Part shown: in pieces, positions 11,113-60,137 of the stretch | Layout: the number at the start of each line of letters is the position of its first letter | Numbering within the stretch: position 1 is the first letter of the stretch | Assembly: GCF_003386795.1 (NCBI RefSeq) | Contig: NZ_QTUC01000001.1 | Location: forward strand, 1,178,001-1,242,000 | Direction of reading: 5' to 3' | Length of the DNA stretch: 64,000 bases | DNA from: Thermasporomyces composti | GTDB taxonomy: Bacteria; Actinomycetota; Actinomycetes; Propionibacteriales; Actinopolymorphaceae | Notes under the pieces: model-generated | The model's input: the letters and a program-made list of their open reading frames with translations, nothing else | Told to the model about the DNA's origin: nothing | Database searches by the model: none | Made by a program: the position numbers and the translations under genes

Positions 11113-11164
11113 GCGCCCAATGCTGCCAAAGTGAGCTTCCTCATCCCGGGGCGGCGTCGGACGG

Positions 11165-11190
11165 GACGTTGTCCTGAGACGTTGTCATGA
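11165..11190. repeat. Two tandem 13-bp repeats upstream of the response regulator
   Basis: GACGTTGTCCTGA is followed at once by GACGTTGTCATGA (12 of 13 identical). The pair lies in the shared intergenic region of the regulator operon and the STAS gene. OmpR-type regulators bind tandem half-sites, so this is a candidate autoregulatory site, although the 13-bp period is longer than the usual 10-11. Confidence 0.5.
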
Positions 11191-11283
11191 GATCGCAAAG
11201 TCTTCGTCGGCTCAACCTCAATGTGAAGATCGCACGATAGACCCGAATAGTTGTCCGTTTTTTGCCTTTTGGAGGCGGCGGCG

Positions 11284-11613: not shown

Positions 11614-11718
11614 CCAGGCCTACGACACGCGCCGCCCAGTGCGTGCGGCACCATGGTCGGCGGTGCGCACCCGCCACGCGGACCGGCGGGTCGCGAGGTC
11701 GCCGCGGAAGGAGCTGGG

Positions 11719-12357: not shown

Positions 12358-12420
12358 GGTTGGCGGAGTCTCTCGGCCGGCACCGTGTTCCCTCGGCACA
12401 ACACGAGCTGTTCCCGACGC

Positions 12421-28328: not shown

Positions 28329-29018
28329 ATGCCACAGCCCCAACGCCGGCGCGTCCTCGTCGTCGAGGACGACACGACGATCGCTTCGGCTATCGCCCAC
28401 CGCCTGACTGCCGAGGGCTTCGAGGTCCACGTGGCCGGGGACGGCGAGTCGGCCCTGGCCGCGTACGAGCGCACCGAGCCGGACCTGGTGGTGCTCGACC
28501 GGCTCCTCCCCGGGATCGACGGGCTGGAAGTCTGCCGCCGGATCCAGGCCAGCCGACCCGTGCCGGTCCTCATGGTGACCGCGCTCGGGGAGGAGACCGA
28601 CCTCCTGGTGGGCCTCGGTGTCGGCGCGGACGACTACGTGACCAAGCCGTTCAGCATGCGGGAGCTGGTGGCGCGCGCGAACGCGTTGCTTCGGCGCGTG
28701 GAACGCGCTGCCCAGCTCGCGGCCGAGAACCAGACCCTCCGGGTCGGCGACCTCGTCATCGACACGGCCGAGCGGCGCGTGTTCGTGGGCACTGAGGAGG
28801 TGCGGCTCACCAAGACCGAGTTCGAGCTGCTCCGACGCCTCGCCGAGCGCCCTGGACAGGTCTTCGAACGAGAGCGCCTGCTCAGCGATATCTGGGGCTA
28901 CTCGCACGCCGCCGCGACCCGGACGGTCGACAGCCACATCCGCGCGCTGCGCCGCAAGCTGGGGTCCGACCTGATCCGGACCGTGTTCGGTGTCGGCTAC
29001 GCGCTGGTGCGCCCATGA
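28329..29018 (+). CDS. OmpR/PhoB family response regulator
   Basis: A 229-residue regulator. The receiver has V-V-E-D-D, the phospho-acceptor Asp in V-V-L-D-R-L near residue 54, and K-P-F-S-M-R-E. The winged helix has L-T-K-T-E-F-E-L-L and V-D-S-H-I-R-A-L-R-R-K-L. Its TGA overlaps the ATG of the kinase fusion gene (ATGA), so the pair is translated together. Probably binds the 13-bp repeats upstream of its own gene (inference). Confidence 0.93.
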   Translation: MPQPQRRRVLVVEDDTTIASAIAHRLTAEGFEVHVAGDGESALAAYERTEPDLVVLDRLLPGIDGLEVCRRIQASRPVPVLMVTALGEETDLLVGLGVGADDYVTKPFSMRELVARANALLRRVERAAQLAAENQTLRVGDLVIDTAERRVFVGTEEVRLTKTEFELLRRLAERPGQVFERERLLSDIWGYSHAAATRTVDSHIRALRRKLGSDLIRTVFGVGYALVRP

Positions 29019-43764: not shown

Positions 43765-44682
43765 TCAGCGCCGCCAGATCGGCGTCCGTCCGAGGATCTT
43801 CGCCAGCTCCTCGTCGAGGGGGAGGAAGTACTCGTCCAGCTTCTTGCGGACGTGCTCGGGCATGGGGTCGCCATCACGAGCGTTGTGTCGCTCGAATGAC
43901 GGAGGCAGCCAGGAGGGCAGACCCAGGAACGCGAGCACCTCCTCGTAGACCTCCTCGGGCCGGGCGAAGAAGTCCTCGCTCTCGATGATGTGCACCTGGT
44001 CCCGGTCGAACAGCTCGAACACCCTCCGGAGCTGCTCGGCGTACCGGCCGCGCGTGACGTACGCGTGGTGACGGTGCGAGTAGCTCTCGTAACCCGGCTC
44101 GGTGCGCAGTCGCTCCTCCTCGCCGGCGAGTCGCTCCTCCTCCAGCTCCAGGGCGCGTTCGAACGGCTCGGTCTCGAAGCCCCGGGCGACCGCGTGCTTC
44201 CATGCCGAGTAGGCCCGCTCGACCGGGTTGCGGATCATGATGAGGAGCCGGACACCGGGCAGATCACGGGCGATCCGGGGCAGTGCCAGCGGGTGGTAGA
44301 GGTAGTAGCCGCTGGACTCCATCGCCTGAGGCTCGCCCGAGCCGACGGACCAGTCACCGGCTCGCCGCCGCGCCGTGGACAGCAGCGGGAAGTGTCCGCG
44401 GTACCACGCCGGTCCGCGGTGGTAGTTGAGGTCGAAGTAGTTGACGCCTTTGTGCAGGATGGGCCCCGCCACCACGGGGTGAGCGATGAGCGCCCGGTGG
44501 AGGGACGTCGTGCCACAGCGCTGACCGCCGACGATCAGGAAGCTGGGCATGAGGCGACCACCGGACGTGTAGCGGCCGATCGTTCGGGTCACCGCCCGGC
44601 CCGACCGCCTCACCCACGGCGGTGCCGCTGCCTTGAGTGCCGCCAGTCCTCCCCCTGATCCCCGAGGAAGCGTCCCACTCAC
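43765..44682 (-). CDS. PAPS-dependent sulfotransferase
   Basis: A 305-residue sulfotransferase. The 5'-phosphosulfate loop V-G-G-Q-R-C-G-T-T-S lies near residue 51 and the 3'-phosphate motif R-N-P-V-E-R-A-Y-S-A-W near 153. It moves sulfate from PAPS to a hydroxyl, usually on a sugar, and resembles the heparan/chondroitin sulfotransferase group. Its GTG overlaps the stop of the AMIN-like lipoprotein gene (GTGA). As part of a polysaccharide island it probably sulfates the polymer or its glycolipid precursor (inference). Confidence 0.88.
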   Translation of the reverse strand: MSGTLPRGSGGGLAALKAAAPPWVRRSGRAVTRTIGRYTSGGRLMPSFLIVGGQRCGTTSLHRALIAHPVVAGPILHKGVNYFDLNYHRGPAWYRGHFPLLSTARRRAGDWSVGSGEPQAMESSGYYLYHPLALPRIARDLPGVRLLIMIRNPVERAYSAWKHAVARGFETEPFERALELEEERLAGEEERLRTEPGYESYSHRHHAYVTRGRYAEQLRRVFELFDRDQVHIIESEDFFARPEEVYEEVLAFLGLPSWLPPSFERHNARDGDPMPEHVRKKLDEYFLPLDEELAKILGRTPIWRR

Positions 44683-45326
44683 CTGCTGCGCACCTCCACA
44701 ACCAGTCGCGTCGGCTCGTACAGCTCCTTGGTCCGGAACTCGGCTCGCTTCGCGAGGCCCACGCCGAACCCCAGCTCACGCCCGACGTTGCGGGCGAGCA
44801 CGGTCTGCTTGATCAGCGGCTGCTCGGGCTCCAGGTCGGCCGGAACGGCGAGTCGACCTTTCGTGTTGGGGTTGGTCAGGGAGAAGCTGACCTCCAAGTA
44901 CGCGGTCCCACGCACCGGGATCGGATCGTCCTCGGCATGGGCCCGCACGGCGTCGACGTACCGCACGCGGTACTTCGGCAGCACGTCGGTGTCGGCGAAG
45001 GTGAACACCAGACGCTCGACCCCGTCGCCCCGACCGACCCGCAGATCGACCAGCCGGGCCGCGGCGTCGCTGCGGTTCCCCTGCGGCTTCTCCCCGAACT
45101 CGCTCGTGCGGGGCACCCCCGGCGTCGACTCGGGGAAGGTCGCCTCGACCTCCTCCATGTCGCTCGGGGACAGACCGGTCGAGCCGCGTCGCGTGTCCTC
45201 CGCCGCCACATCGGCCCGCGCGGGGGCGACACCCTCCCCGCTCGGCTCGTTCCGTGTGCACGCCGCACCGGCCGAGATCACCAATCCGGCGAGCACGAGT
45301 GCTGCGATGACCGTCCTCGCTCTCAT
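44679..45326 (-). CDS. AMIN-like domain lipoprotein
   Basis: A 215-residue secreted protein. A hydrophobic signal ends with A-A-C near residue 23, a plausible lipobox. After a disordered stretch, residues about 90-215 form a beta-rich domain (L-V-D-L-R-V-G-R-G, V-F-T-F-A, Y-L-E-V-S-F-S, L-V-V-E-V) like AMIN-type domains that bind peptidoglycan or surface glycans. It overlaps the PKD gene by four bases (ATGA) and the sulfotransferase gene by four more. Confidence 0.7.
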   Translation of the reverse strand: MRARTVIAALVLAGLVISAGAACTRNEPSGEGVAPARADVAAEDTRRGSTGLSPSDMEEVEATFPESTPGVPRTSEFGEKPQGNRSDAAARLVDLRVGRGDGVERLVFTFADTDVLPKYRVRYVDAVRAHAEDDPIPVRGTAYLEVSFSLTNPNTKGRLAVPADLEPEQPLIKQTVLARNVGRELGFGVGLAKRAEFRTKELYEPTRLVVEVRSR

Positions 45327-48300
45327 GACGCCGGCCCGATCAGGATCGACCACATCGTGGCGTGTCGGCTCGCGGCGTCCGCAGTGGCCGTCAACCCGCC
45401 CCGTGGCTTGAGGCCGACCGTCGCGCCGCTGTCCGTCACGAGGCTCGAGACCCGCCCGCTGCCGGAGCCGAACGAGGTCCGCCGAACCGTCTGACCGGCG
45501 GGAGGCGTCCACGCCGTCGTCGCCGACGACTTGTCGGCCCAGTAGCTCACCAGCCACGCGCCCGACACGTTGTCGACCTGGGGCGTGGTGTGCGCCGCGG
45601 TCGCCTCGGTCTCCGCGGCGCTGGCGAACGCCCGCACCCCCAGGTTGGGTCCTCGGTAGGCGACCACCGCGAGGTCCGCCTTGCCGTAGTCGGACAAGGT
45701 CACCGTGACGGTCGCGCCCGCGTCCGTCGGCGCCGCGACCTTCTTCCACACCCGGGTCATGGTGCCCGACGTAGCTTGCGTGCCGACAACCGCCCACTCA
45801 CCACCGGACCCGCCGCTCGGCGCCGAGATGGTGAGGTCCGCCGAGTTGACCGTCATGAAGAGCAGCAGCAGGTCACCTGCCGCGACGTCCCCCGGGATCG
45901 TCACCTGGTGTGTCCGCAGGTTCGCGTTGACACCGGCCTGCGCGACGAACCGCGTGGATGTCGCCGGAGGCGCGACACGAATGTCCTGGGTCGTCTCGCC
46001 CTGGCCACCGTCGTTGTCGGTGACGGTGAGCCGAATGGTGTAGCCGCCCTCACGCGCGTAGGTGTGGGACGCCGTACGACCGCTGCCGGTGGAGCCGTCA
46101 CCGAAGTTCCAGGAGTACGACGCGATCGTGCCATCCGGGTCCCTGGACTGGCTCGCGTCGACGGTGCAGCTCAGCCCGTCGCACGACACGGTGAAGGCGG
46201 CCGTCGGCTCCTGGTTGGGCCGGGTGACCGTCACGTCGACGCTCGCCTTCCCGATCGCTCCGTTGTCATCGGTCACCGTGAGCGTGATCCGGTAGGTGCC
46301 GCTGGCGGAGAAGGTGTGGGACGGCGTGGGCCCGGTCGCGGTCGTACCGTCCCCGAAGGACCAGTGGTAGGACACGATCCGACCGTCGGGGTCGTGCGAG
46401 CCCACCGAGGTGAAGTCGCAGGAGAGCTCCTCACAGGAGGCGGCGGCGACGGCCACGGGTGCCTCGTTGGGCGGCGGCGTCCGGTCGGCCAGGACGAAGA
46501 TCGCCCGGCTCCGCCAGTCGAGACCGTCGATGGTCGGGCCGCTCACCGGCCTGACCGTGCCGGGCACCGGCGCGCCGTCGCGGAAGGACACCCGGCGCAG
46601 GATCCCGTCGGACGAGGACGCGAAGTACAGCTGGTCGCCGACGAGGAACATGCCCGCCACCCGGGAGAAGTCCACACCCGTGATGCTGGCGCTGGCGGTC
46701 AGCCGCTGCGCCCCCACCACGAGGCTCTCCGGTGTGAAGTACCGGTAGTAGAGGTAGTTCGACCCGGAGCGGGTGTAGTACAGCCGACCGTTGTGGACGA
46801 ACATGCCGGTGGCCGAGGCGACGTCGTTGTGCCAGGTCGTGTCCACCACCAGCTGGTCGGCGGTGTCGATGACCTGGCTGAGGCCGAAGCTCGACCCGTC
46901 GAACGAGCGACGGGTGAAGCTGCCGTCGGACCAGCCGGTGTAGAGCTGGTCGCCGAGCATGAACGCGCCACGCACCTTGTCCCAGGACAGGCCACCGGCC
47001 GGGGCCACGGTGGCGTCGCCGACGGTCTGCCCGTCGAAGTGGACCTTGCGCGGCGAGACGTTCGATCCGCCTGTGGGGACGACGTACACCTCGCCCGGCA
47101 GCTGCCCGGGGTTCAGCCGTGGCACCTCGGTGCCACCGGCGAGCGGGAAGAACGCGATCCGCGCGTGGTACTCCCAGTTGCCGATCCGGTCGGTGTCGCT
47201 GCCCACCCACAGGCCTTGGGAGGTGGCCAGCATGTCGAATACGCCCACGCCCTTCGTACGCCCGGGGTTCCACCGCAGCGGCAGCCCGTTGGTGGGGTCG
47301 AGAGCGGCGATGCCTTCGCGCGCCACCGCGCCAGGGCCGGCCTTGTCCCCCCGGTGGGGGTTGTTCTGCCAGCGGAAGTGCCCACCGACGTAGACGGCGG
47401 TGCCCGTCACCGCCACGGCGTAGGTGGTGTCCCCGCCGGTGTAGTTCACCCACGTCGGCTTGAGGTTGGACCCGCGAGCCCCGGTCTCGAACCGGGCCGT
47501 GGTGTCACAGGGACCCGGCGGGCCACCGGCGTAGCTGCCGGTCGTCGACACGACGAAGTAGGAGCCGTCCGGCGCGATGTCGAGGTCGCGCATGTAGGAG
47601 TCGAACGACGAGGAGCATTGCGCGGAATAGAAGTCGGTGTGCCAGTCAGCCAGGCGCGCCCTCTGACCGGTGAGGTCGAGGACCGCGATCTGCGGGCGGG
47701 ACTGGTCCTCGACCTTCGTGAAGTTTCCGATCGCCACCAGACGCGACCCGTCGGGCGTCACGTCCATCTTCATGACCTGGAGGACGCCGCCGTTGCGCGG
47801 GCCGGAGAAGGTCAGGCCCTGGAAGGGGTCGAACGCCCCGGTCTTGGGGTCCACGGTCGCCAGGGCGGCCTGCGGCCGGTCGGCGACGTAGCCGAAGGTG
47901 CCGGCCACGAAGAGCCGGCCACCGCTCAGCCGGAGGTCCTTGACGCGCCCGTTGAGCTTGGGAGCGGTGAAGCCCGGCACCAACGCGCCGTCGGAGAGCC
48001 GGATCCGGGCGAGACTGCGGGACGGCGTGCCGTTCACCGTGTCGAAGAAGCCGCCCACGAACACCGACGCGTTGTCCTCGGCGACGGCGAGCGAGGTGAC
48101 CTCGCCGTCGACCTCGGGCGCGAAGCTCGTGCTCACCGCGCCGGTGGTGGCGTTGAAGGCGACCAGGTTGGTCCGGTCGTAGATGGTCCTGCCGTCGGCG
48201 GAGCTCACCTGGGTGAACAAGCCACCCAGCACCACGGTGTCACCGACCTGCACGATCGCCTTGACACGTCCGTCGAGGACGTGGGGCGTCCAGTTCACCG

Positions 48301-48427
48301 GGTCGTCGCTGACGACCTTGGCTTGCGAAGTCTGGACGGCTTGCGCCGGCGGTGCGAACGACAGAGAAACGGCCGGCAGCGCGGAGCAGATGACGGCGAA
48401 TGCCACGCCGAGGCGGCGTAGGAACAC
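45323..48427 (-). CDS. Secreted beta-propeller protein with two PKD domains
   Basis: A 1034-residue exported protein. The signal peptide is residues 1-30 (P-A-Q-A cleavage). Residues about 45-330 hold repeated V-L-G-G-L-F-T, V-F-V-G-G-F-F and L-F-V-A-G-T-F blocks like delta-60-type propeller blades. A second beta-rich region lies around 340-660. Two PKD domains (Y-H-W-S-F-G-D-G-T and Y-S-W-N-F-G-D-G-S) lie around 675-850, and a final jelly-roll-like domain ends the protein. These parts suggest glycan or surface binding. First gene of an operon with the AMIN-like and sulfotransferase genes, divergent from the polymerase operon. Confidence 0.82.
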   Translation of the reverse strand: MFLRRLGVAFAVICSALPAVSLSFAPPAQAVQTSQAKVVSDDPVNWTPHVLDGRVKAIVQVGDTVVLGGLFTQVSSADGRTIYDRTNLVAFNATTGAVSTSFAPEVDGEVTSLAVAEDNASVFVGGFFDTVNGTPSRSLARIRLSDGALVPGFTAPKLNGRVKDLRLSGGRLFVAGTFGYVADRPQAALATVDPKTGAFDPFQGLTFSGPRNGGVLQVMKMDVTPDGSRLVAIGNFTKVEDQSRPQIAVLDLTGQRARLADWHTDFYSAQCSSSFDSYMRDLDIAPDGSYFVVSTTGSYAGGPPGPCDTTARFETGARGSNLKPTWVNYTGGDTTYAVAVTGTAVYVGGHFRWQNNPHRGDKAGPGAVAREGIAALDPTNGLPLRWNPGRTKGVGVFDMLATSQGLWVGSDTDRIGNWEYHARIAFFPLAGGTEVPRLNPGQLPGEVYVVPTGGSNVSPRKVHFDGQTVGDATVAPAGGLSWDKVRGAFMLGDQLYTGWSDGSFTRRSFDGSSFGLSQVIDTADQLVVDTTWHNDVASATGMFVHNGRLYYTRSGSNYLYYRYFTPESLVVGAQRLTASASITGVDFSRVAGMFLVGDQLYFASSSDGILRRVSFRDGAPVPGTVRPVSGPTIDGLDWRSRAIFVLADRTPPPNEAPVAVAAASCEELSCDFTSVGSHDPDGRIVSYHWSFGDGTTATGPTPSHTFSASGTYRITLTVTDDNGAIGKASVDVTVTRPNQEPTAAFTVSCDGLSCTVDASQSRDPDGTIASYSWNFGDGSTGSGRTASHTYAREGGYTIRLTVTDNDGGQGETTQDIRVAPPATSTRFVAQAGVNANLRTHQVTIPGDVAAGDLLLLFMTVNSADLTISAPSGGSGGEWAVVGTQATSGTMTRVWKKVAAPTDAGATVTVTLSDYGKADLAVVAYRGPNLGVRAFASAAETEATAAHTTPQVDNVSGAWLVSYWADKSSATTAWTPPAGQTVRRTSFGSGSGRVSSLVTDSGATVGLKPRGGLTATADAASRHATMWSILIGPAS

Positions 48428-48792
48428 GGTGGTCCCCCCCGAGGTAGGACGAGACACAGCGGCGCTCCGCCGATGCAGCGGAGTGGGAGCGATGACGGCA
48501 GACGATGCCGACGCGGACGATAATCTTGCCGCCCTCGATGGTCTCCGGCAAGGCGTGATCTCGACCGGGCGCGACCACGCCGATGCGGGCTGTGGACGAC
48601 TCGCGCGCGGTGCCCTGGGTCCCCGTTGGCGGAGAAGTCGGCATCCCCGCCCGCGATCACCCCAGGTCTCGTATCCTCGGGCACGGCCGGAAGGTGGCAC
48701 GGGCTCGGCGCCGGCCAGGCCTGCGGACACCCCGACGGCACGCCGAGCTTCGGACTCACGTTCCCGTGGCCGCACGCGGGGAGGGCACCCAG
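48428..48792. other. Divergent regulatory region of the polysaccharide island
   Basis: About 365 bases between the PKD operon and the polymerase operon. Reading frames through it look non-coding. It must hold both promoters; the only clear element is the GGGGAGGG ribosome site of the polymerase gene (48778-48785). Confidence 0.5.
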
Positions 48793-50292
48793 ATGGGGAC
48801 GACGTCCGCCACGGGTTCGCCGGCAGTCCGACCGGAGGCCAGTGGCGTCGAATCAGGAGTCGGTGGGGCCGGCTCACGCACCCGGGAAGGCACCGCCGGG
48901 TCGAGCACCGCCGCGGCACCCGCCTCGCCCACCCCTGCCCGCAGATCCCGCGGCACCCGCCTCCCGGGCTGGCCGCTCACCGTGCTCTACCTCGGGTTTC
49001 CCCTCTGGTGGGCCCTCGGCCTGGCGACGTTCATGTTCGTCCTGGTGGCCGTCCCCATGGCGATCCACCTGCTCGCCCGGCCGCAGGTGCGGGCACCGCG
49101 AGGGTTCGGCCCGTGGCTCGCGTTCTTGGCGTGGATGCTCGCCGGCGTCACGATGCTGTGGGCCGACGCCCCCGGCGCCGAGCCGGGCGGCGGCGGACCC
49201 GGTCGACTGCTCGTCTTCGGGTTCCGTGCCGCGATGTACGTCGCCGCCACGGTCACCTGCTTGTACGTCCTCAACGCCGACGAGCACGACCTGCCCACCC
49301 GTCGGGTGGTGCGCCTCCTGGCGTCCATGTTCGTCGTGACGACCTGTGGCGGGCTGCTCGGCGTCGTGGCTCCGACGCTGGAGTTCCGCTCCCCCATGGA
49401 GATGCTGCTGCCGCGCGGCATCGCCACCAACGAGTTCGTCTCCCGGCTCATCCACCCGGCCGTGGCGGACGTGCAGACGATCCTCGGCTACGCGGAGGCA
49501 CGGCCGATCGCGCCGTTCGCGTACGCCAACTCCTGGGGCGCGAACTTCTCGCTCTTCCTCCCGTTCTTCTTGCTCGCCTGGCTGGGACGCGACGCCGGCT
49601 GGCGGCGTGCGGTGGCACCGTTCGTCTTGGTGATCTCGCTGGTCCCGGTCGTGTACTCGCTCAACCGCGGCCTGTGGCTCGCCCTCGGTGTGGGCGTCTG
49701 CTACCTCGCGCTCCGGCTGGTCCAGATGGGGTACCACAGAGCCTTCGCGGCGCTCGTCGGCACCCTCCTGGTCGGGGCTGTCACCTTCCTGGTCAGCCCG
49801 CTCGGCGCGATGGCCCTGCGACGCCTGGAGTCGCCGCACTCCAACGACCGCCGTGAGCGACTGGCGGTGGAGACGGTCCGCTCGGTGCTCGAAGGCTCCC
49901 CCCTCCTCGGGTTCGGGTCGACGCGGGACGTACAGGGCAGCTTCTTCTCCGTGGCCGGCGGGGCCACCCCGGACTGCCCGGCGTGCGGTGTCCCCCCGTT
50001 GGGCACCCAGGGACAGCTTTGGCTGGTGATCTTCTCCCAGGGCCTGGTCGGCTTGGCGCTGTTCCTCGCGTTCTTCTCCCGCCAGCTCGCCGCGGCCTGG
50101 AAGGACACCTCGCCGCTCGCCGTCGCCGTCTGCTGCGTCCTGGTGTTCTTCGGCATCGAGCTGCTCGTCTACGACACCTACGACGCACCGATGGTGACGG
50201 TCATGATCGCCATCGGCTTGCTCGCCCGGCAGTCGGACGCACGAGCGCGCTGGCTGGACGGGCGGCTCGAGCGAGAAGGAGGCACACCCTGA
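48793..50292 (+). CDS. O-antigen ligase-like (WaaL/Wzy) membrane protein
   Basis: A 499-residue membrane protein with about ten to twelve TM helices after a disordered 55-residue N-terminus. A large outer loop lies between helices near residues 190-260 and another near 355-420 (with C-P-A-C-G-V-P-P), the place where Wzy/WaaL proteins act. L-N-R-G-L-W is the familiar R-G motif of the family. It would polymerise or ligate undecaprenyl-linked glycans outside the membrane. ATG 48793 has GGGGAGGG upstream, far better than the earlier in-frame starts. First gene of a four-gene operon. Confidence 0.85.
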   Translation: MGTTSATGSPAVRPEASGVESGVGGAGSRTREGTAGSSTAAAPASPTPARRSRGTRLPGWPLTVLYLGFPLWWALGLATFMFVLVAVPMAIHLLARPQVRAPRGFGPWLAFLAWMLAGVTMLWADAPGAEPGGGGPGRLLVFGFRAAMYVAATVTCLYVLNADEHDLPTRRVVRLLASMFVVTTCGGLLGVVAPTLEFRSPMEMLLPRGIATNEFVSRLIHPAVADVQTILGYAEARPIAPFAYANSWGANFSLFLPFFLLAWLGRDAGWRRAVAPFVLVISLVPVVYSLNRGLWLALGVGVCYLALRLVQMGYHRAFAALVGTLLVGAVTFLVSPLGAMALRRLESPHSNDRRERLAVETVRSVLEGSPLLGFGSTRDVQGSFFSVAGGATPDCPACGVPPLGTQGQLWLVIFSQGLVGLALFLAFFSRQLAAAWKDTSPLAVAVCCVLVFFGIELLVYDTYDAPMVTVMIAIGLLARQSDARARWLDGRLEREGGTP

Positions 50293-51611
50293 GCGGCGAC
50301 CAGTCCGACACCCTCACGGCGCTTCTGGAGACCATCGCGTTGCTGTGGCCGGCACCGGCGCGCGTGGACGTCCCCCTCGAGCCCGGACACGCGGTGGTGC
50401 GCGAGTTTCTGCTGCTGCCGAGCCGTCGTCATCCGAGCCTTGCGTTGCCGGCCGCCGGAGGCGGCGTGGCCGCCGCAGCGGTCCGCAAGTACAGCCAAGG
50501 GGTCGGCTGGACCGAGCGTGCCGCTCGAACCCTCGCGTCCGGTGTGCTCCGCCTCCCCGGCGGCTACGTGACGCTGCGTCGCCTGGCCCGGGACCGGCTG
50601 CGGGTGAGCGCACCCGTCGGAGCACTCGTCGACTCGATCGAACGTCACCTCGGCGAGATCCTCGGTGCGGACGTCGTCGTGACCATGACCGTCGGACCGC
50701 CCCGAGCCAACCGCAAGCCCATCCTGCAGGTCCTGGCGCTCGACGGCCGTACGGTGGCGTTCGTCAAGGTCGGCACCTCGGCGGTGAGCCAGGCGCTGGT
50801 CCGTGGCGAGGCTGAGGTGCTTTCCGCGCTGTGGTCGGCCGACCGACCTCCGCGACAGCTCCGGATCCCCCGGGTGCTGCACCACGGGCGATGGCGTGGC
50901 CTCGACCTCCTCGTGCTCACCCCGGTGCGCCCCACGTCGCTTCGGTGGCGACGCCAGGACGTCCCCACCGCCGCCATGCGAGAGCTCGCCGGCTGGCTCG
51001 GAACCTCCCGCCGCCCTCTCAGCACGAGCGAGGCGTGGAAGCTCGCCCAGGACACTCCCGCCCAGCTCGCCGACCCACGGCAGGCCGCGGAGTTCGAGCG
51101 CCTCGTCGACGTCGCCGGACAGCGGTACGGGGATGTCGAGCTGGCCCTCGGGGCCTGGCACGGCGACTGGACGCCGTGGAACATGGCCTGGGACGGCACC
51201 CAGGTGTTGCTCTGGGACTTCGAACGCTTCGCCACCGGCGTCCCGGTGGGGTTCGACCTCCTTCACTACACCCTGCAGGTGGTGCTCCGGGACCGCGGTG
51301 AGCGAGCGGCCGCCGACGTCGTCCGAGCCGTGCTGACCGGCGACCCCAGCCGCGTCCGGGCCGCCACGGGGCGGCGCCGCGGCGTCGCGGGCGGGTTGGT
51401 CCAGCGGGCGGTCACCGACCTGGTGAGTCGCCGCGTCGACGACGCCCACGACCCGTTCGCCGGCAACGACGTACCGGCCGTCATGGTGGCCTACCTGGTC
51501 GAGCTGGCCAGGCGTTACCTCCTCGCCTCGGAGCCACCCGAGGGCGCGCCCTTGCGGTCGCGGACTCGCTGGCTGCTCGACCTGCTCGCGGAGGTGGTGG
51601 TACGCCCGTGA
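50289..51611 (+). CDS. Phosphotransferase (aminoglycoside-kinase fold) in polysaccharide operon, CTG start
   Basis: A 440-residue kinase-fold protein. The catalytic loop is G-A-W-H-G-D-W-T-P-W-N near residue 295 and the metal site follows as L-W-D-F-E-R-F. The N-lobe has V-A-F-V-K-V-G-T, whose Lys should bind ATP. The N-terminal 110 residues are unusual. The start appears to be CTG 50289: it overlaps the upstream TGA (CTGA), AAGGAGG lies six bases upstream, and no ATG or GTG with a ribosome site occurs in the first 70 codons. Probably phosphorylates a sugar or lipid of the pathway. Confidence 0.8.
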   Translation: MSGDQSDTLTALLETIALLWPAPARVDVPLEPGHAVVREFLLLPSRRHPSLALPAAGGGVAAAAVRKYSQGVGWTERAARTLASGVLRLPGGYVTLRRLARDRLRVSAPVGALVDSIERHLGEILGADVVVTMTVGPPRANRKPILQVLALDGRTVAFVKVGTSAVSQALVRGEAEVLSALWSADRPPRQLRIPRVLHHGRWRGLDLLVLTPVRPTSLRWRRQDVPTAAMRELAGWLGTSRRPLSTSEAWKLAQDTPAQLADPRQAAEFERLVDVAGQRYGDVELALGAWHGDWTPWNMAWDGTQVLLWDFERFATGVPVGFDLLHYTLQVVLRDRGERAAADVVRAVLTGDPSRVRAATGRRRGVAGGLVQRAVTDLVSRRVDDAHDPFAGNDVPAVMVAYLVELARRYLLASEPPEGAPLRSRTRWLLDLLAEVVVRP

Positions 51612-53023
51612 TCTCCGCGTCCACCCGGCACCTCACGGTCTCCACCGTGGACCTGGCGACCTACGGGAGCGCGCTGCGCCGTCACTGGCGGATGTGCGTC
51701 GCACTCGGCCTGGTCGGACTCACGCTGGGCGGGTTGCTGGCCGCGGCGATTCCCGCGACGTACACCGCGACCGCCAAGGTGTTCGCCCCCGCCGTACCCG
51801 CGCACGTCACCCTCGACCTTGGCCAGGCACGGGCCAATTCGCGACCACCACGGGAGTGGACGCAAGACACCGAGGCGGAGCTCCTCCGCTCGACGGCGGT
51901 GCTCGACCCTGCCGCCCGACGACTCGGCGACTCCTGGACGGCCGTCGACCTAGCTCCCCGCATCCACCTCGCCGTACCGACGAGCACCCGCGTGTTCCTG
52001 GTGAGCTTCACCGCCGAGGACGCCGAGACGGCCCGACGCGGCGCCCAGATCGTCGCGGAGGAGTTCGTTCGCGAGCGCTCGACGTTGCTTACCCGTCGCG
52101 CCCAGCGCATCACCGCTGCGCTACGCGATCGTCGCTCCCAGCTCCAGACGAGGCTCAGCGACGAATCCGCCACCTCGAGAGCGCGTGCGCGCCTCCGGAA
52201 CCAGATCGCCCGGATCGACAAAGCGCTGCAGGAGGTCGCGGCCTCCAGCGCGAACCCCGCTCGGGTCGTGGAGAACCCGGACCCGCCACGGCAACCGGTT
52301 CGCGGCAACGTCGAGGTGCCGCCTGTCTCCGGTCTCATGACCGGTCTGCTCGCGGGCGTCGCCGTGGGATGGCTCCGGGACCGACGCCACCCCTACGTCC
52401 GAGACGCCGACGACGTCGCCCAGGTCACGAACCTGCCGGTCCTCGCCCACGTGGATGACCATTTCCTGCAAGCCGGGTTCGGGTCACGGACGGGGATCAC
52501 GGCGCTCGCCGCGCTGCTGAGGCGCGCGGCACCCGTGGACGGCCTTCGTGTCCTGGTCACGGGATGGTGCCCGGACGACGTCCTCACCCTCGTCGCGGAG
52601 CAGCTCCGACGAGCGCTTGTGGCGGTGTCGAGTGACAGCGCGGAAGCCACCGACGTCGAGCGGGCCGCCACCACCCTCGACGGCGCCTCGACGGGTGCCG
52701 TGGCGGTGGTGAGTTGTCGTGCCGGCTCGGCCACCATGGTCCGCCGGGCCGGGGAGGCCGACGTGGTGCTTCTCGTGGCTGAGCTAGCCCGAGGCGTCCG
52801 ACACGATCTCGCGCGGACCGCGCGGATCCTGCGTCGCACCGGTGCCCTGGCCGGCGTCGTCACCCTCGCCACGACGCGCATCGCCGCGACGTTCTCGTCC
52901 GCCCCCCAGCGCAGTTCAGAGCAGTCCAGCCCGGATCCGTCCGGCTCACCACCCTCGCCGGCACCGGCGACGCCGGCGGAGCCACCAGCCGACCAGACCA
53001 TGACGGGGAGCGCAGCACCATGA
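51608..53023 (+). CDS. Wzz-type chain-length protein with P-loop-less kinase-like domain
   Basis: A 471-residue polysaccharide co-polymerase. TM1 is at about residues 30-52, followed by an external region with coiled-coil potential (about 150-205). TM2 is at about 240-258, preceded by a P-P-R-Q-P segment. The cytoplasmic part (265-430) is laid out like a BY-kinase/MinD domain but lacks the Walker A loop: V-L-V-T-G-W-C-P-D-D stands where G-E-G-K-S/T is expected. A-D-V-V-L-L-V keeps the later strand. The C-tail is Pro/Ser-rich. GTG start inside the kinase stop (GTGA). Confidence 0.82.
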   Translation: MISASTRHLTVSTVDLATYGSALRRHWRMCVALGLVGLTLGGLLAAAIPATYTATAKVFAPAVPAHVTLDLGQARANSRPPREWTQDTEAELLRSTAVLDPAARRLGDSWTAVDLAPRIHLAVPTSTRVFLVSFTAEDAETARRGAQIVAEEFVRERSTLLTRRAQRITAALRDRRSQLQTRLSDESATSRARARLRNQIARIDKALQEVAASSANPARVVENPDPPRQPVRGNVEVPPVSGLMTGLLAGVAVGWLRDRRHPYVRDADDVAQVTNLPVLAHVDDHFLQAGFGSRTGITALAALLRRAAPVDGLRVLVTGWCPDDVLTLVAEQLRRALVAVSSDSAEATDVERAATTLDGASTGAVAVVSCRAGSATMVRRAGEADVVLLVAELARGVRHDLARTARILRRTGALAGVVTLATTRIAATFSSAPQRSSEQSSPDPSGSPPSPAPATPAEPPADQTMTGSAAP

Positions 53024-54036
53024 CCGAGACGACTCTCAACCCACCCACGAACGGCTCGTCGACCACGTCGACAGACGTCCCGAAGGCGGCGACAGCCCGG
53101 CGCGAGGACGTCACGGGCGGCACCGGAACCCTTCCCTTGGTGAGCGTCGTGATCGCCACCAAGAACCGTCCCGCCCTGCTGCGTCGAGCCATCGACGCGG
53201 TCCTCGGGCAGACCTATGCCGGTCCGATCGAGTGCGTCATCGTCTTCGACCACGTCCCCATCGACGAGTCGCTGGCGTACGAGGCGGAGAACCGCAGGGT
53301 CGTCTGCGTCCCCAACGTCCGCACGCCTGGTCTGGCGGGCGCGCGCAACAGCGGCATCGACGTCGCGGCCGGCGAGTTCGTCGCCTTCTGCGACGACGAC
53401 GACGAATGGCTCCCGGACAAACTGCACCTGCAGATCGAGAAGCTCCAGTCCACCGGGTGCGACGTCGCGGTGTCCGGTATCGAGGTCCACTACGAGGGCA
53501 AGGTCACGCCGCGAGTGCCGCGCCCGGACGACATGACGGTGCGGGTCCTCGCCCGTCGGCGGGTCATGGAGGCTCACCCGTCGACGGTGGTGGTCCGGGC
53601 CAGCGCGCTGCGGGAGCGCATCGGTCTGGTGGACGAGGCGATCCCGGGCAGCTTCGGCGAGGACTACGACTGGATGCTGCGGGCCGCCCAAACCGCCCGG
53701 ATCGCCGTGGTCGAGCGTCCGCTCGTGCGCGTGCTCTGGGGGCGCCAGTCGTACTTCACCAGGCAGTGGCGCGTCATCATCGAGGCGATCGACTACAAGA
53801 TCGCCAAGCACCCGGCGCTCCGCGAGGACCCGCACGGGCTGGCCCGCCTCCGCGGTCAGCAGGCCTTCGCTTACGCCGCGCTCAAGGACCGGCGCTCGGC
53901 CCTGCGGTACGCCGCCCAGACCATCCGGCTCAACTGGCGGGAGCAACGGGCCTACGTCGCCATCCTGGTCGCGTTGGGCTTCGTCACCGCCGACCAAGCA
54001 CTCGCCTTGGCCAACTCGGCCGGTCGAGGCATTTGA
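53020..54036 (+). CDS. Glycosyltransferase family 2
   Basis: A 338-residue GT-A fold enzyme. P-L-V-S-V-V-I-A-T-K-N-R-P opens the nucleotide-sugar domain near residue 34; G-A-R-N-S-G-I and the metal-binding F-C-D-D-D-D-E-W follow near 125; E-D-Y-D-W-M-L-R near 215 supplies the catalytic base. The C-terminus has amphipathic helices but no clear TM, so it is peripheral. It adds a sugar to the growing repeat unit. ATG overlaps the Wzz stop (ATGA). Confidence 0.9.
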   Translation: MTETTLNPPTNGSSTTSTDVPKAATARREDVTGGTGTLPLVSVVIATKNRPALLRRAIDAVLGQTYAGPIECVIVFDHVPIDESLAYEAENRRVVCVPNVRTPGLAGARNSGIDVAAGEFVAFCDDDDEWLPDKLHLQIEKLQSTGCDVAVSGIEVHYEGKVTPRVPRPDDMTVRVLARRRVMEAHPSTVVVRASALRERIGLVDEAIPGSFGEDYDWMLRAAQTARIAVVERPLVRVLWGRQSYFTRQWRVIIEAIDYKIAKHPALREDPHGLARLRGQQAFAYAALKDRRSALRYAAQTIRLNWREQRAYVAILVALGFVTADQALALANSAGRGI

Positions 54037-54076: not shown

Positions 54077-54616
54077 TCAGCGCGCCCTTCCCGACGTGGG
54101 TGAGTCGTCTCGGCCACGGAACAGGCTCGCGACCAAGGCGGCGAAGCGCTGGACGGCCTCAGCGGTGGTGTCCGCCTCCTGCGTCGAGCTTGCCCGCACC
54201 AGCTCGGGGTCGTCCAGCGCCTGGTCGAGCACGCTCTCCAGCTCTTGCCGCGTCGTGACGGTCAGCACCAGGTCCCGTTTCACCAGATGGGTCACGAATC
54301 TCACTTGGTGGTCGTCGACGTGCTCGCCCAGACGAGCCCGGCGCGGCACGACGATCGGCTTGAGACCGTGCCGCCGCGCCTCCAGGATCGTCGACGGGCC
54401 TCCGTGACAGACGACGATGGCCGCCTGTGCCATCCACGCCTCGAGGTCAGCGTGGCCGAGGTACGCCATGCCGCGCGCGTGTTGGGGCGGCGTGGACGTC
54501 CCGTACTGGATGAGACAGTCGACCTCGGGCCGTCGGGCGCACCACATGTCCACCCAGGTCACCAGCCGGTGGAAGGGGTGGTAGTCCGTGCCGACGACGG
54601 TGAGCACGCGTCGCAT
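54077..54616 (-). CDS. PssE/Alg13-like glycosyltransferase subunit (donor-binding half)
   Basis: A 179-residue protein matching the C-terminal half of GT-B (GT28-type) enzymes. V-C-H-G-G-P-S-T-I-L-E-A near residue 70 is the UDP-sugar-binding motif, followed by P-I-V-V-P-R and H-V-D-D-H-Q. Works with the PssD-like membrane subunit encoded just upstream, as Alg13 does with Alg14. ATG 54616 is preferred; GTG 54625 is possible. Confidence 0.85.
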   Translation of the reverse strand: MRRVLTVVGTDYHPFHRLVTWVDMWCARRPEVDCLIQYGTSTPPQHARGMAYLGHADLEAWMAQAAIVVCHGGPSTILEARRHGLKPIVVPRRARLGEHVDDHQVRFVTHLVKRDLVLTVTTRQELESVLDQALDDPELVRASSTQEADTTAEAVQRFAALVASLFRGRDDSPTSGRAR

Positions 54617-54633
54617 GCGACTCACCGGGTCGC

Positions 54634-55119
54634 TCAAAGTAGTGTCCCCACGACGTGGGCGCCCTTGTACAGCGCGGCCTGCTCCTCCCACTGCACGCAG
54701 AACAGTGACGAGAGCGGTCGACAGAGCCGGCCGGTGAGCGTACGGCTGTCGAGCCGGTCGTAGACCTCGAGGTACACCGTCGGAATCCCCATCGCACGCG
54801 CCAGGAGGAAGAACGGGAACGCTACACCAGCGCCGGTCGAGATCACCACGTCTGGACGTGTGCGACGGAGGACACCGGCGGCGAGGACAAGGTTGCGCAC
54901 GAGATTGGGGATGTTGCGGGTCGTCGGGAAGTGCGCCCAGACGACCTCCTCGCCCTGCAGACGTGACTTCGCGTCCTGCGTCGCGAACGTCACCCACACA
55001 CGTTCCCGTGTCTCCCACCACGGTCGCAAAGCCAACAACTGCGCGAGGTGCCCACCGCTCGAGCCGACGAGGAGCAAACGTCGCGGCGGATCTGGGCGCG
55101 CGTCGTCATCACCGTGCAT
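54634..55119 (-). CDS. PssD/Alg14-like glycosyltransferase subunit (membrane/acceptor half)
   Basis: A 161-residue protein matching the N-terminal GT-B half: L-L-L-V-G-S-S-G-G-H-L-A-Q-L near residue 15, then W-V-T-F-A-T-Q-D, and V-I-S-T-G-A-G-V-A-F-P-F near 95, which helps membrane contact. It recruits PssE to the membrane and together they add the second sugar to the lipid carrier in exopolysaccharide assembly. ATG 55119 start after a G-rich stretch. Separated from the PssE gene by 17 bases. Confidence 0.85.
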   Translation of the reverse strand: MHGDDDARPDPPRRLLLVGSSGGHLAQLLALRPWWETRERVWVTFATQDAKSRLQGEEVVWAHFPTTRNIPNLVRNLVLAAGVLRRTRPDVVISTGAGVAFPFFLLARAMGIPTVYLEVYDRLDSRTLTGRLCRPLSSLFCVQWEEQAALYKGAHVVGTLL

Positions 55120-55294: not shown

Positions 55295-55374
55295 GATCAT
55301 GGCCGGAAAGTGGTTCGCCTCGGCCTACGGTGGTCTACCGTCTTCCGGCAGAGACGACCACAAGGGGAGGGCAG

Positions 55375-57231
55375 ATGCGTGGCGCCACAGGCACGTCCAC
55401 ACCGGTGACGTTCGTGGCCACCGCACTGCGCCGTCACCTCGCCCTCCTCATCGTGCTCACCCTCGCCGGTGCGGCGTGCGGTGTCGGGGTGGCGATGCGC
55501 CAAGGCCCGCGGTACACCGCCAGCTCCTCCATCATGCTCAACCCCCTGCCGGGCAACCCGTACTCCCCGGAGGGACGCGGCGACCAGCTGGTCAACGTCG
55601 AGACCGAGGCGCAGCTCGTCCGCGCCGAAGGCGTCACCAAGCTCGTACGGCAACGGCTCGGCCTCGACGTCAGCGACGACGCGCTGCGCCAGCGCGTGAG
55701 CGTGGAGAACCCCCCGAACTCGCAGATCCTCCACATCTCCTACACCGCGTCGACACGTGAGGAGGCGCTGCGCGGCGCTCAGGCGTTCGCCACGGCCTAC
55801 TTGAGCTACCGCGAGAACCTCGCGAAGACCACCATCGAGACTCGCCTCGAGCGGCTCCGCAGCCAGCAGCCCACCAGCGAAAGCCTGCAGAACGAGATCG
55901 ACGCGCTGAGAGCCACGGACCTGACCCCAGGACACATCCTCAGCCCGGCCGACGCTCCGGAGTCGCCGCGCCGCACCGACCTCTTCGTCCTCGGCGGCGC
56001 CGGCGGCATCGGGGGCCTCCTCATCGGTGTCCTCCTGGCGCTCGTGCGTGCCCGCCGCGACGACCGCCTGCACGATGCCAACGACGTCGAAGCGGTCGAT
56101 CTGCGACTGCTCGGCGTCGTCCCGGACGCCGACCGCTACAGCGCGGCACGAGCGGCCAACCCCGCTCAAGGGTTGCCCGAGTGCTACCGCGCGATCCGCA
56201 CCGCCGTGATCACCTCCCTCGAGCGGCCACCGATGATTCTCAGCGTGGCGGGAGTCTCCGAGGAGGTCTCGGCCGCGCCCGAGGCCACCGCCATCGCCGT
56301 CGGACTGGCCAGGTCCGGGTTCACCGTCGTTCTCGTCGACGCGGTCGGCGAGGCGACCCGCATGCTCGCCGGCAGGTCGCTGCCCGGCCTCGCTGAGGTG
56401 CTCGCGGGAGAGGCCGAGCTCCGCGGCGTCCTCGTCCAACCCGAGGACAACCTCGTCCTGCTCCCGTTCGGTCAGCCGCAGCAGGAGACGATGGACCAGC
56501 TGCTCTCCCCGCGCATGCTGACCACCATCCGGCGGTTGCGGGACTGGTATGACTATGTGATCATCGCCGGTCAGTCGGCCGCCGGCGCCGACGGGCAAAC
56601 CCTGGCGGCGCTCGCCGACGGTGTCGTCCTCATCGCCATCCGTGGAGTGACCACGCACCGCGAGCTCAGCGCCTGCACGTCCGCGCTCGCCCGCGTCCAC
56701 GCGGTCCCCGTCGGTGCCGTCGTGTTGGACCGGCCCTCCCGTCGCCGTGGGCGCACCACGTCCAAGGCGGCTGACGAGTCCACGGCGGCTGACGACAACA
56801 CCCCACAAGGCGACCGCTCCGCCGCGACCACCAGTCGCTCGACCGTTCCGTCCGCTGATGCGAGGCCGTCGACCAGCCCACGGTCGACGACGTCGTCCAC
56901 CACGTCCCCGACCATGACGTCCACCGCCACGACCCACACCACCCGCGAGGCAGCCACGCGTGCGACGCAGGCACGGTCCGGCTCGACCTCGCCAGCCTCG
57001 GCGGGCCACGACCACGCCGCCTCCCGAACCGCCCCAGCCTCCACACCGTCGGACTCGTCGACAGCCGCAAGCTCGGCCCTCACAACCCCGGTCTCGTCCA
57101 GCCAGCGCGAGGCCATCCGCGGCGAGGCCCCCGAGAACGGGCACCCGGCCTCGGACCATCCGAGGTCTCCCGCACCTGATCACGAGGACGACTACCCGAC
57201 CGCTCTCCTCTACCCGGCGGACGAACGGTGA
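55375..57231 (+). CDS. Wzz/BY-kinase-like co-polymerase lacking the P-loop
   Basis: A 618-residue protein. TM1 is at about residues 20-40, an external Wzz domain at about 41-195 (P-R-Y-T-A-S-S-S-I-M-L-N), TM2 at about 205-225. The cytoplasmic MinD-like domain (about 270-440) keeps C-Y-R-A-I-R-T-A and V-V-L-V-D-A-V, but where the Walker A loop belongs it reads V-A-G-V-S-E-E-V-S-A-A-P. It is thus a predicted pseudokinase. The last 150 residues are Ser/Thr/Pro-rich and lack the Tyr cluster of true BY-kinases. ATG 55375 has GGGGAGG upstream. Its stop overlaps the flippase fusion gene. Confidence 0.85.
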   Translation: MRGATGTSTPVTFVATALRRHLALLIVLTLAGAACGVGVAMRQGPRYTASSSIMLNPLPGNPYSPEGRGDQLVNVETEAQLVRAEGVTKLVRQRLGLDVSDDALRQRVSVENPPNSQILHISYTASTREEALRGAQAFATAYLSYRENLAKTTIETRLERLRSQQPTSESLQNEIDALRATDLTPGHILSPADAPESPRRTDLFVLGGAGGIGGLLIGVLLALVRARRDDRLHDANDVEAVDLRLLGVVPDADRYSAARAANPAQGLPECYRAIRTAVITSLERPPMILSVAGVSEEVSAAPEATAIAVGLARSGFTVVLVDAVGEATRMLAGRSLPGLAEVLAGEAELRGVLVQPEDNLVLLPFGQPQQETMDQLLSPRMLTTIRRLRDWYDYVIIAGQSAAGADGQTLAALADGVVLIAIRGVTTHRELSACTSALARVHAVPVGAVVLDRPSRRRGRTTSKAADESTAADDNTPQGDRSAATTSRSTVPSADARPSTSPRSTTSSTTSPTMTSTATTHTTREAATRATQARSGSTSPASAGHDHAASRTAPASTPSDSSTAASSALTTPVSSSQREAIRGEAPENGHPASDHPRSPAPDHEDDYPTALLYPADER

Positions 57232-60137
57232 GCTCCACGGCCTCTGTCCGACGACTCGCCCGCAGCGGCACCCTCAACCTCGCTGGGACCCTCGTCGGTG
57301 GCATCGCTGGCATCGCGCTGGTCATCGTGGTGACCAACGGCGCCCACGCCGATGTCGCCGGAACTCTCTTCGCCGCCACGTCGTTCTTCCTGCTCACCAC
57401 CGCGGTCGCGACCCTCGGCACCGACGCCGGTCTCGCCCACACCATCCAGCGCCAGCTAGCGGCGGGCCGCCCCGCCGGCGCGGCCGCCGCCACCCGGACA
57501 GCGTTGCGCGTCGTCGGTTGCCTGAGTGTGGCGCTGGCGGGGATGGTCTGGGTCGCCGCACCGACCCTCACCGGACTGGTGAGCCATGACACGGACCCGG
57601 CGACCCTCGTCGCGACGTTGCGCGTGCTCGCCGTCCTGCTTCCCGTGGCGACGGCGTACGAGGTGCTGCTCGCCACGACGCTCGCGTACGGCACCGCCCG
57701 CGCCAACGTCCTCGTCGAGAAACTCGGTCGACTGCCCACCCAGACGGCTCTCGTCGCGGTCGCGACGCTGGTGGGAGCCGGACCGGTCGGACTGTCGATC
57801 GCGTGGGGAGCGCCCTACGTCGTGGGCCTCGCCATCGTGGGCTGGTGGTGCCTGCGTCTGATGCGAGGCCACGGTGCGGTCGCGCCCCTCACCGAGGCAG
57901 AGCAGGCCGAGGTCACCCGTGCCTTCTGGGCCTTCACGACGCCTCGGGCGGCTGGCCGCATCTGCCAGGTCGCCCTCCAGCGCGCCGACATCGTCCTGGT
58001 CGCGGCGCTCCTGGGACCCGCGGACGCGGCGGTCTACACAGCCGCGACCCGTTTCCTCGTCCTCGGGCAGCTCGCCACGCAGGCCGTCCAGCAGGTTCTC
58101 CAGCCCCAGCTCTCCGGTCTGTTCGCCCGCGGGGACCTCGCCGAGGTCCGGCGCCTCTTCGTCGTCGCGACCGCCTGGCTCATGGCTCTAGCCTGGCCGG
58201 TCTACCTGGTCAGCGCCGTCGCGGCGCCGGTGCTGCTCCAGGTCTTCGGCGAGGGGTACGGCGACGGTCGCGCGACCGTGGTCATCCTCTGCCTGACCAT
58301 GCTGGGCGCGACCGCGTGCGGGTCCGTCGACGTCGTGCTGCTCATGGCCGGACGCAGCCGGGCCAGCCTGGTCAACAACGCCGCGGCGCTCGTCGTCGAC
58401 ATCGTGCTCCTGTTCCTGCTCGTGCCGAGCCTCGGCATCACCGGCGCGGCGCTCGCGTGGGCCGCCGCCCTCGCTGTCCGCAACGTCTTGCCGATGGTTC
58501 AGGTCCGCCGGGCGTTCGGAGTCTCCTCGCTCGGCGCGCCGGTCGCCTGGGTGGCCGCCAGCGCGGCTGTGTGCTTCGGCCTGGCGCCCCTGGTGGTCAC
58601 CCTCGTGGTCCCGCCCACCCCGTCGAGCATGGCGGTGTGGCTGCCCGCGGCCGGACTCGCGTACGCCGGTCTGCTCTGGCGTGGACGTCGGATCCTCCAG
58701 CTGAGCGCGTTCCGGACCGCGTTCCCCGTGCCGCGACCCCACGCGGTGCTGCGACGACTCACGCGCCTGGCGACCGCCCTGCTGGCGCGTGTCACGCGCC
58801 TCCTACGACGTCTGCCGATCCCGCACCGGGTTCGCGTGGCGCTGTCCACGCTGTTGTTGCGCCGCCCCGGGCTCGCCGAGGTACCGCTGGACCGCCTGCT
58901 GCTCGGGGTGCAGGACGGCGTCTCGACCAGCGAGTACGCCGAACGGTTCGACGACCTCCTGTGGGCCTCCACACCCATCGCCCAGGGCCCTCACGCGTGG
59001 TTGTTGCGCGCCGCCGCCGAGCGCGGCAGCGCGGGCCTGAGCGACGAGGAGATCCTCGCGTCGCCGTACGGCACACACGCCAGACGCTGTCTCCAGCTCA
59101 CCGGACGCTACTTCTCCGCGACCGACGACGCCGGCATCGTGGCGGAGGCGCGCTCCTTCTTGGCCCGCGCCGGCGAGCACCACGCCGCCCCTGTGCCCGT
59201 ACCCGCAGGCGTGGTGTCGAACGAGCTCGCCGAAGCCAGGCCGGTTGCGCACCCCGGCACGGACAGCGGAGGCGTCCCGCCCGAGGCAGCTCTTCGTACC
59301 GGTAGCCACGCCCACAGCGGCCCGCGGGACCCCATCCTGGTCGCGCCCATCCGCGACTCCGACTGCTTCCAGATCCTCGACGGCCACCACCGGCTGGCCA
59401 TGCTCGCCCACCGGGGCGCCCGCACGGCTCACGTCAAGGTCAAGCGGATTCCCGTCACCACGCCACTTCAGGACCTGCTGTCGCGGATGAGCTGGATCGG
59501 CGGGAAGAAGGAGCTGTACCAGCCGATCGACGCGCCCGAGCTGCGTCAACGCTGGGTCGTCGTGCGGCGCTGCACCGACCGGCTCGCGCTCATGGAACGC
59601 TTCCTGGCCGAGCACGACATCCAGCCGCCGGGGCGCGACTACCTCGACGTGGCCAGCTGCTACGGCTGGTTCGTCCACCAGATGAGCGAACGGGGCTTCG
59701 CCGCGTACGGCGTCGAGCGCGACCCCCTGGCGCCTCGCCTCGGCGCGGCCGTGTACGGCCTGGATCCGGGACGCATCCACGTCGGCGACGCTGTGGAGTT
59801 CTTGCGCGAGGCCGAGAGCAGTGGTCGACGCTGGGACGTCGTCTCCTGCTTCAGCCTCCTCCACCACTTCGTGCTCGGGCGGGGCAGCACCACGGCGGAG
59901 GAGCTCGTCCGGCTGCTCGACCAGGCGGCCGGCCGTGTGCTGTTCCTCGACACCGGTCAGGAGCACGAGGCGTGGTTCGCCCACTCGCTCAAGGGGTGGA
60001 ACGCCGAGTCCATCGCGGCGTTCCTCCGCGAGCACACGACGTTCGACGAGGTGGTCGACCTCGGGCCGGACCAGGACGCCGTCGGCCCGTATGCCGACAA
60101 CTACGGCCGGCACCTGTTCGCCTGCATCCGTCGGTGA
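57228..60137 (+). CDS. Flippase fused to ParB-like and methyltransferase domains
   Basis: A 969-residue protein. Residues 1-about 485 have twelve or more TM helices of the Wzx/MOP-flippase type, which move undecaprenyl-linked sugars across the membrane. Residues 510-690 form a soluble region (S-T-S-E-Y-A-E-R-F, S-P-Y-G-T-H-A-R-R). A ParB/Srx-like motif I-L-D-G-H-H-R-L-A lies near 718. From about 780 on, a class I SAM methyltransferase has D-Y-L-D-V-A-S-C-Y-G-W-F near 804 and V-S-C-F-S-L-L-H-H near 870. Such a combination is unusual. It may methylate the glycan end before export. GTG overlaps the preceding stop (GTGA). No internal stop or ribosome site splits it. Confidence 0.87.
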   Translation: MSSTASVRRLARSGTLNLAGTLVGGIAGIALVIVVTNGAHADVAGTLFAATSFFLLTTAVATLGTDAGLAHTIQRQLAAGRPAGAAAATRTALRVVGCLSVALAGMVWVAAPTLTGLVSHDTDPATLVATLRVLAVLLPVATAYEVLLATTLAYGTARANVLVEKLGRLPTQTALVAVATLVGAGPVGLSIAWGAPYVVGLAIVGWWCLRLMRGHGAVAPLTEAEQAEVTRAFWAFTTPRAAGRICQVALQRADIVLVAALLGPADAAVYTAATRFLVLGQLATQAVQQVLQPQLSGLFARGDLAEVRRLFVVATAWLMALAWPVYLVSAVAAPVLLQVFGEGYGDGRATVVILCLTMLGATACGSVDVVLLMAGRSRASLVNNAAALVVDIVLLFLLVPSLGITGAALAWAAALAVRNVLPMVQVRRAFGVSSLGAPVAWVAASAAVCFGLAPLVVTLVVPPTPSSMAVWLPAAGLAYAGLLWRGRRILQLSAFRTAFPVPRPHAVLRRLTRLATALLARVTRLLRRLPIPHRVRVALSTLLLRRPGLAEVPLDRLLLGVQDGVSTSEYAERFDDLLWASTPIAQGPHAWLLRAAAERGSAGLSDEEILASPYGTHARRCLQLTGRYFSATDDAGIVAEARSFLARAGEHHAAPVPVPAGVVSNELAEARPVAHPGTDSGGVPPEAALRTGSHAHSGPRDPILVAPIRDSDCFQILDGHHRLAMLAHRGARTAHVKVKRIPVTTPLQDLLSRMSWIGGKKELYQPIDAPELRQRWVVVRRCTDRLALMERFLAEHDIQPPGRDYLDVASCYGWFVHQMSERGFAAYGVERDPLAPRLGAAVYGLDPGRIHVGDAVEFLREAESSGRRWDVVSCFSLLHHFVLGRGSTTAEELVRLLDQAAGRVLFLDTGQEHEAWFAHSLKGWNAESIAAFLREHTTFDEVVDLGPDQDAVGPYADNYGRHLFACIRR

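Follow-up and report, generated by a model that had tools for sequence, protein, structure and literature searches.

Within the 64-kb stretch of the Thermasporomyces composti genome analysed here (hereafter the window), one open reading frame (57228-60137, + strand) encodes a 969-aa protein in which a Wzx/MurJ-type flippase runs on, in the same chain, into a ParB-like part and a class I methyltransferase of the WbdD type. This fusion is kept in relatives within one small family of soil actinobacteria, derives from operon neighbours and carries WbdD-type active-site residues. Each of the three components is known; their union in one chain was not found described. Searches of open-licence PubMed Central papers, which are not proof of absence, returned no description of a protein that combines flippase and methyltransferase domains, in agreement with the initial sequence-only reading, which knew of no protein with this layout. 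The same collection yielded no description of a flippase operon that uses a WbdD-type methyltransferase, and no paper on polysaccharide synthesis in Actinopolymorpha. Our best reading, with a probability of roughly 0.55, is that a lipid-linked repeat unit is (phospho)methylated in the cytoplasm by an enzyme tethered to its own flippase, following a single fusion of operon neighbours.

To our knowledge, how Wzx/Wzy pathways, which export finished repeat units, check the completeness of these units is largely unresolved. A flippase naturally fused to a modifying enzyme points to direct contact of the two partners, gives a testable system and suggests a physical coupling between the chemical finishing of the sugar unit and its export. 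WbdD-type methyltransferases, known as chain terminators from ABC systems, would also be extended to glycans that depend on a flippase in Gram-positive actinobacteria, and a nucleotide domain of the ParB-like kind would be linked to the synthesis of cell-surface sugars.

Architecture and integrity of the fused gene

The fused gene opens with a GTG at 57228, ends with a stop codon at 60135-60137, contains no in-frame stop and is present as a single copy in the 4.37 Mb single-contig genome. Third-position GC ranges from 0.78 to 0.98 in each 60-codon window of the gene, junction included, and stops are present in both alternative frames of 57228-60137, so that nothing points to a frame shift. The one-chain layout proposed at the outset (flippase, ParB-like motif, class I methyltransferase) is borne out by the open frame and by six more genomes; the junction, at about 58.68-58.81 kb, falls a little ahead of the 58.7-58.9 kb initially noted. 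The possibility that sequencing or assembly had joined two genes, through a stop or frame shift overlooked at 58.7-58.9 kb, was ruled out and retains next to no probability: the halves do occur as two genes in relatives of other families, but the coding signal is without break, the junction stop that the sequence-only reading had regarded as telling against the fusion is absent, and the six further genomes with the same fusion were independently sequenced.

The flippase part (residues 1-485; 57228-58682, +) comprises 14 transmembrane helices in a MOP fold, as judged by Pfam, AF2 and Foldseek. Pfam MatE scored above the gathering score in this N-terminal part, and the best Foldseek match was MurJ (7waw, E 6e-8), with WzxE (9g9n, E 1e-6) and MATE transporters also matched. 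By its 14-helix fold, its MatE signature and its setting in an operon with Wzy and Wzz, this half belongs with the Wzx/MurJ-type flippases of the MOP superfamily, flipping itself being predicted; it differs from them by the extra soluble half of ~440 residues that follows the last helix. The even number of helices places both ends of the flippase half on the same side. From the last transmembrane segment to residue 560 there are 17 K+R versus 2 D+E and, applying the positive-inside rule to this arginine-rich tail, we infer that the C-terminal half is cytoplasmic. AF2 gives the full-length chain a pLDDT of 88 and the soluble half one of 85, and the full model, with a pTM of 0.64, does not fix the mutual placement of the two halves. 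The chain may also undergo post-translational cleavage.

The flippase is joined to the soluble half by an arginine-rich linker (residues 486-527; 58683-58808, +), recognised by charge count, pN/pS and an AF2 helix of moderate confidence at residues 504-527. The soluble half, hereafter ParB-MT, begins with a helical region (residues 528-655; 58809-59192, +) that is modelled by AF2 and, in alignments, is found in the separate genes of other families too. A variable loop follows (residues 656-695; 59193-59312, +), with pLDDT mostly <50 and a pN/pS of 0.91 for residues 651-695.

The ParB-like part

The ParB/SerK-like core (residues 696-745; 59313-59462, +), delimited by alignment with SerK, is centred on D718-R722 (DGHHR; 59379-59393), a P motif with its nucleotide-binding Arg that is invariant in 25 sequences. 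The ParB-like motif D-G-H-H-R-L pointed out in the sequence-only reading therefore stands as DGHHR with SerK/ParB similarity around it, and is not accompanied by a Pfam ParB_N match above cut-off: the similarity lies below every Pfam threshold, and ParB_N was matched in one of the 25 members, at an E of 0.02. Structure searches with the soluble half gave lists occupied by matches to the methyltransferase part. With the ADP-dependent serine kinase SerK (5x0e), a short similarity around DGHHR is shared by 24 of the 25 members at E <0.1 in NCBIfam; it spans only about 34 residues, far under the family cut-off.

A 2025 survey reported fusions of ParB-fold domains to Methyltransf_23 and found that bacterial fusions with SAM-methyltransferases bind ATP (PMC12704722). 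The protein described here resembles these ParB-CTPase fold fusions in having a ParB-like P motif with an invariant Arg beside a Methyltransf_23-like domain. It differs in belonging to an exopolysaccharide operon and in being joined to a transporter; the survey text mentions neither flippases nor polysaccharides. A nucleotide is the probable ligand of the ParB-like domain.

A WbdD-type methyltransferase

The methyltransferase (residues 759-969; 59502-60134, +) was assigned through profile, structure and hhalign matches. Pfam Methyltransf_23 scores just under the gathering score in the whole protein and just over it for the soluble half alone. In a PDB sequence-profile search with the methyltransferase halves, WbdD came first (E 6e-6), followed by UbiG (3e-3), and WbdD alone aligned the pre-core motif ELYQPIDAPEL..RRCTDRL. 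WbdD was also first by structure alignment (Z 17.3 over 198 residues; next family 16.0), and hhalign against a WbdD-type domain from E. coli produced the same alignment, with 23% identity. The match to WbdD has an identity of about 16-25%, with a Z score only slightly above that of other methyltransferases. Hits in a viral structure library were for the most part generic methyltransferases. The SAM-binding fold of this half is predicted to be intact.

Six residues, Y764, R780, C782, R785, H879 and H880, correspond to Y16, R31, C33, R36, H132 and H133 of WbdD and are invariant in 17 aligned sequences. In WbdD, methyl transfer to a sugar phosphate requires Y16, H132, H133 and R203, and a neighbouring sulphate pocket is lined by R31, C33, N34, Q35, R36, F194, D195 and H197 (PMC3482155). 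The ParB-MT halves have other residues in place of N34 and Q35, and H197 is unmatched; sequence alignments assign no position to R203, a candidate counterpart being R961, which precedes the last strand. The suggested likeness to a known O-antigen terminator thus holds by profile, structure and residues, the terminator of E. coli O9a and Klebsiella O3 being the closest solved methyltransferase domain. The two proteins otherwise differ. WbdD has a protein-kinase domain in its chain, whereas the fused protein ends at the methyltransferase and an APH-like gene is found elsewhere in its operon; the C-terminal coiled-coil ruler of WbdD, and the ABC exporter with a carbohydrate-binding domain that goes with it, are respectively absent from the fused protein and unrecognised in its operon; and WbdD has neither ParB-like domain nor flippase. 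MftM, the mycofactocin oligosaccharide methyltransferase, is likewise a glycan methyltransferase and was weakly matched by 9 of 25 ParB-MT halves (best E 4.7e-4), so that methylation of a sugar hydroxyl is conceivable too. A role as DNA methyltransferase or in chromosome segregation was considered; the similarity to WbdD and the operon context speak against it.

As a separate observation, an E. coli IncX5 plasmid typed as conjugative (NZ_CP022158.1, locus L083) carries O9-family wzm and wzt with a WbdD-type gene, and near-identical WbdD segments were seen on other enterobacterial plasmids.

The polysaccharide locus

The operon is of the Wzx/Wzy/Wzz type, with flippase, polymerase and Wzz encoded together, the Wzy_C match of the polymerase lying below cut-off. 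Immediately upstream of the fused gene, and overlapping its start by 4 bases, is a gene for a Wzz-type chain-length protein with a BY-kinase-like half (55330-57231, +). A normal Walker A motif cannot be seen in that half, which is possibly a pseudokinase. A second Wzz-type protein (51608-53023, +) matches Pfam Wzz above cut-off. The Wzy-like polymerase (48583-50292, +; start uncertain; Wzy_C E 2.8e-4) is kept in related loci. Domain searches also identified a GT2 glycosyltransferase (53020-54036, +) and, on the opposite strand, a glycosyltransferase pair formed by an Alg14-like and a GT28 C-terminal (Alg13-like) member (54077-55116, -), kept in several related loci. No ABC exporter gene was recognised in the locus of the window or in those of relatives, and no initiating polyprenyl-phosphate sugar transferase was recognised near the fused gene.

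An APH-like phosphotransferase (50313-51611, +; start uncertain) displays HGDWTPWN and WDFE motifs. All the loci that were read contain such a gene together with that for ParB-MT, with the APH motifs kept; Pfam APH matches 4 of 16 APH-like members (best E 1e-8), and the profile of this putative kinase found no match among solved structures. On the strength of its motifs and the Pfam matches, it is the natural candidate for the kinase that would make a phosphate on the glycan.

A sulfotransferase (43765-44592, -) accompanies the polysaccharide locus in four actinobacterial families (loci L044-L053, L068-L070 and L077-L081 in addition to that of the window). The copy of the window is 57-63% identical to those inside the loci of two of these families (f20 and f73, see below), and the association suggests a sulfated glycan.

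Distribution and origin of the fusion

The same unbroken chain, without stop, was found in all six Actinopolymorpha genomes searched, at 66-68% identity. Every Actinopolymorphaceae genome having both halves (7/7, two genera) has them fused, at odds with homologues that are always two separate genes, the pattern that the sequence-only reading had held to count against its interpretation. In a third genus of the family (G007), the flippase is encoded alone and is followed by a sulfotransferase. Between fused genes, pN/pS is 0.33-0.45 on both flanks of the junction, indicating protein-level constraint, and 0.93 for linker residues 501-526, which are nearly free to change and where indels are of whole codons. 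Near the junction, no internal start codon with a Shine-Dalgarno sequence is conserved in any of the seven fused genes, which speaks against separate translation of the soluble half.

A search for the soluble half covered genomes of the order (293), the class (394) and the phylum (296), in partly overlapping samples, as well as 120 genomes of one further family, and showed it to be uncommon. In three other actinobacterial families, designated f4 (10 genomes), f20 (7 genomes) and f73 (1 genome), the two halves are separate genes of one polysaccharide operon. The order in f4 is Wzz, flippase, sulfotransferase, ParB-MT and APH-like kinase. In the seven f20 genomes and the f73 genome, the ParB-MT gene lies directly behind the flippase gene; in five f20 loci the two genes, as annotated, share 1 or 17 bases, ParB-MT having its own AGGAG-type site and a different frame. 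The f20 order (Wzy, APH-like, sulfotransferase, Wzz, in one locus GT2 and Alg14/GT28, then Wzz-kinase, flippase and ParB-MT) closely matches that of the window. In one f20 locus (L068), a gene for an RCC1-repeat protein (10283-12943) lies directly behind the separate ParB-MT gene, with a GH26-like gene next.

In the trees of each half, the fused proteins form one clade (support 0.99 and 1.0). Since this clade is monophyletic and the halves are separate in the same operon of three other families, a single lineage-specific event joining operon neighbours is well supported, as is its placement in an ancestor of those Actinopolymorphaceae that carry the fused gene. A plasmid or phage origin was rejected: the soluble half had no match in the plasmid and phage collections, and the one match in the plasmid collection concerned the flippase only.

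Such an event might have been neutral, a stop or frame having been lost between co-transcribed, overlapping genes, with both halves unchanged, no new coupling and the tethering incidental. The unfused pair maintained in three other families and the slight constraint on residues 501-526 are what this would predict, but the fused state has been kept in two genera without acquiring a stop or an internal start. We regard a neutral fusion as plausible, if not favoured.

Proposed role of the fused protein

The following model, which covers the substrate, the sequence of events and a possible gating of the flippase, is inferred. The N-terminal half would flip an undecaprenyl-linked repeat unit, and the C-terminal half, remaining in the cytoplasm where S-adenosylmethionine is found, would methylate this unit. 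The methyl acceptor would most likely be a phosphate on a sugar, given the WbdD-like site, or otherwise a sugar hydroxyl. The acceptor phosphate could come from the APH-like kinase of the operon or, with lower likelihood, from the ParB/SerK-like domain. With the enzyme tethered, modification of a unit ahead of flipping should become more probable. By analogy with ABC exporters, which check for a capped chain, flipping might even depend on a methyl-phosphate mark completed at the transporter mouth, as a form of quality check, an extension that we hold to be speculative.

The sequence-only reading had suggested that the fusion could cap or check each unit on export, with methylation of the terminal sugar as a stop signal for chain growth in some O-antigens. 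With capping, a unit (phospho)methylated on its acceptor sugar could not take a chain from Wzy and could only start one, so that the fused enzyme would set chain number and length. Terminal methylation is established as a stop signal for ABC-transporter pathways (PMC3482155, PMC11231755), in which WbdD and its relatives end O-antigens with methyl or methyl-phosphate groups (PMC3482155, PMC11231755), chain growth stops and the exporter recognises the cap (PMC11231755). The WbdD-type methyltransferase with its matching active-site residues would suit such a function. However, the operon encodes Wzy, two Wzz-type proteins that already supply length control, and a flippase, and neither the coiled-coil ruler nor the cap-reading ABC transporter of the WbdD system has a recognised counterpart in the protein or its operon. 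In a Wzx/Wzy/Wzz-type locus with no recognised ABC exporter, a classical chain-stop role is thus unlikely, and decoration of the lipid-linked unit before flipping is the likelier function.

Finally, the ParB-MT half could act as a nucleotide- or SAM-binding sensor that regulates the flippase rather than as a glycan methyltransferase. ParB-fold domains serve as nucleotide switches in other proteins (PMC12704722), and SAM motif I is atypical here (DVA.CYGWF). A purely regulatory domain would nevertheless have no need for the catalytic positions Y16, H132 and H133 of WbdD, which are invariant in the sequences examined, and we consider this alternative very unlikely. Methylation before flipping by a tethered enzyme remains the reading we prefer.

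Two further genes of the window were noted. At the edge of the polysaccharide locus, 45323-48427 (-) encodes a 1034-aa protein with PKD domains, and a single 908-aa frame at 29015-31741 (+) combines HAMP, HisKA and HATPase domains with DUF4153, an uncommon arrangement for a histidine kinase.
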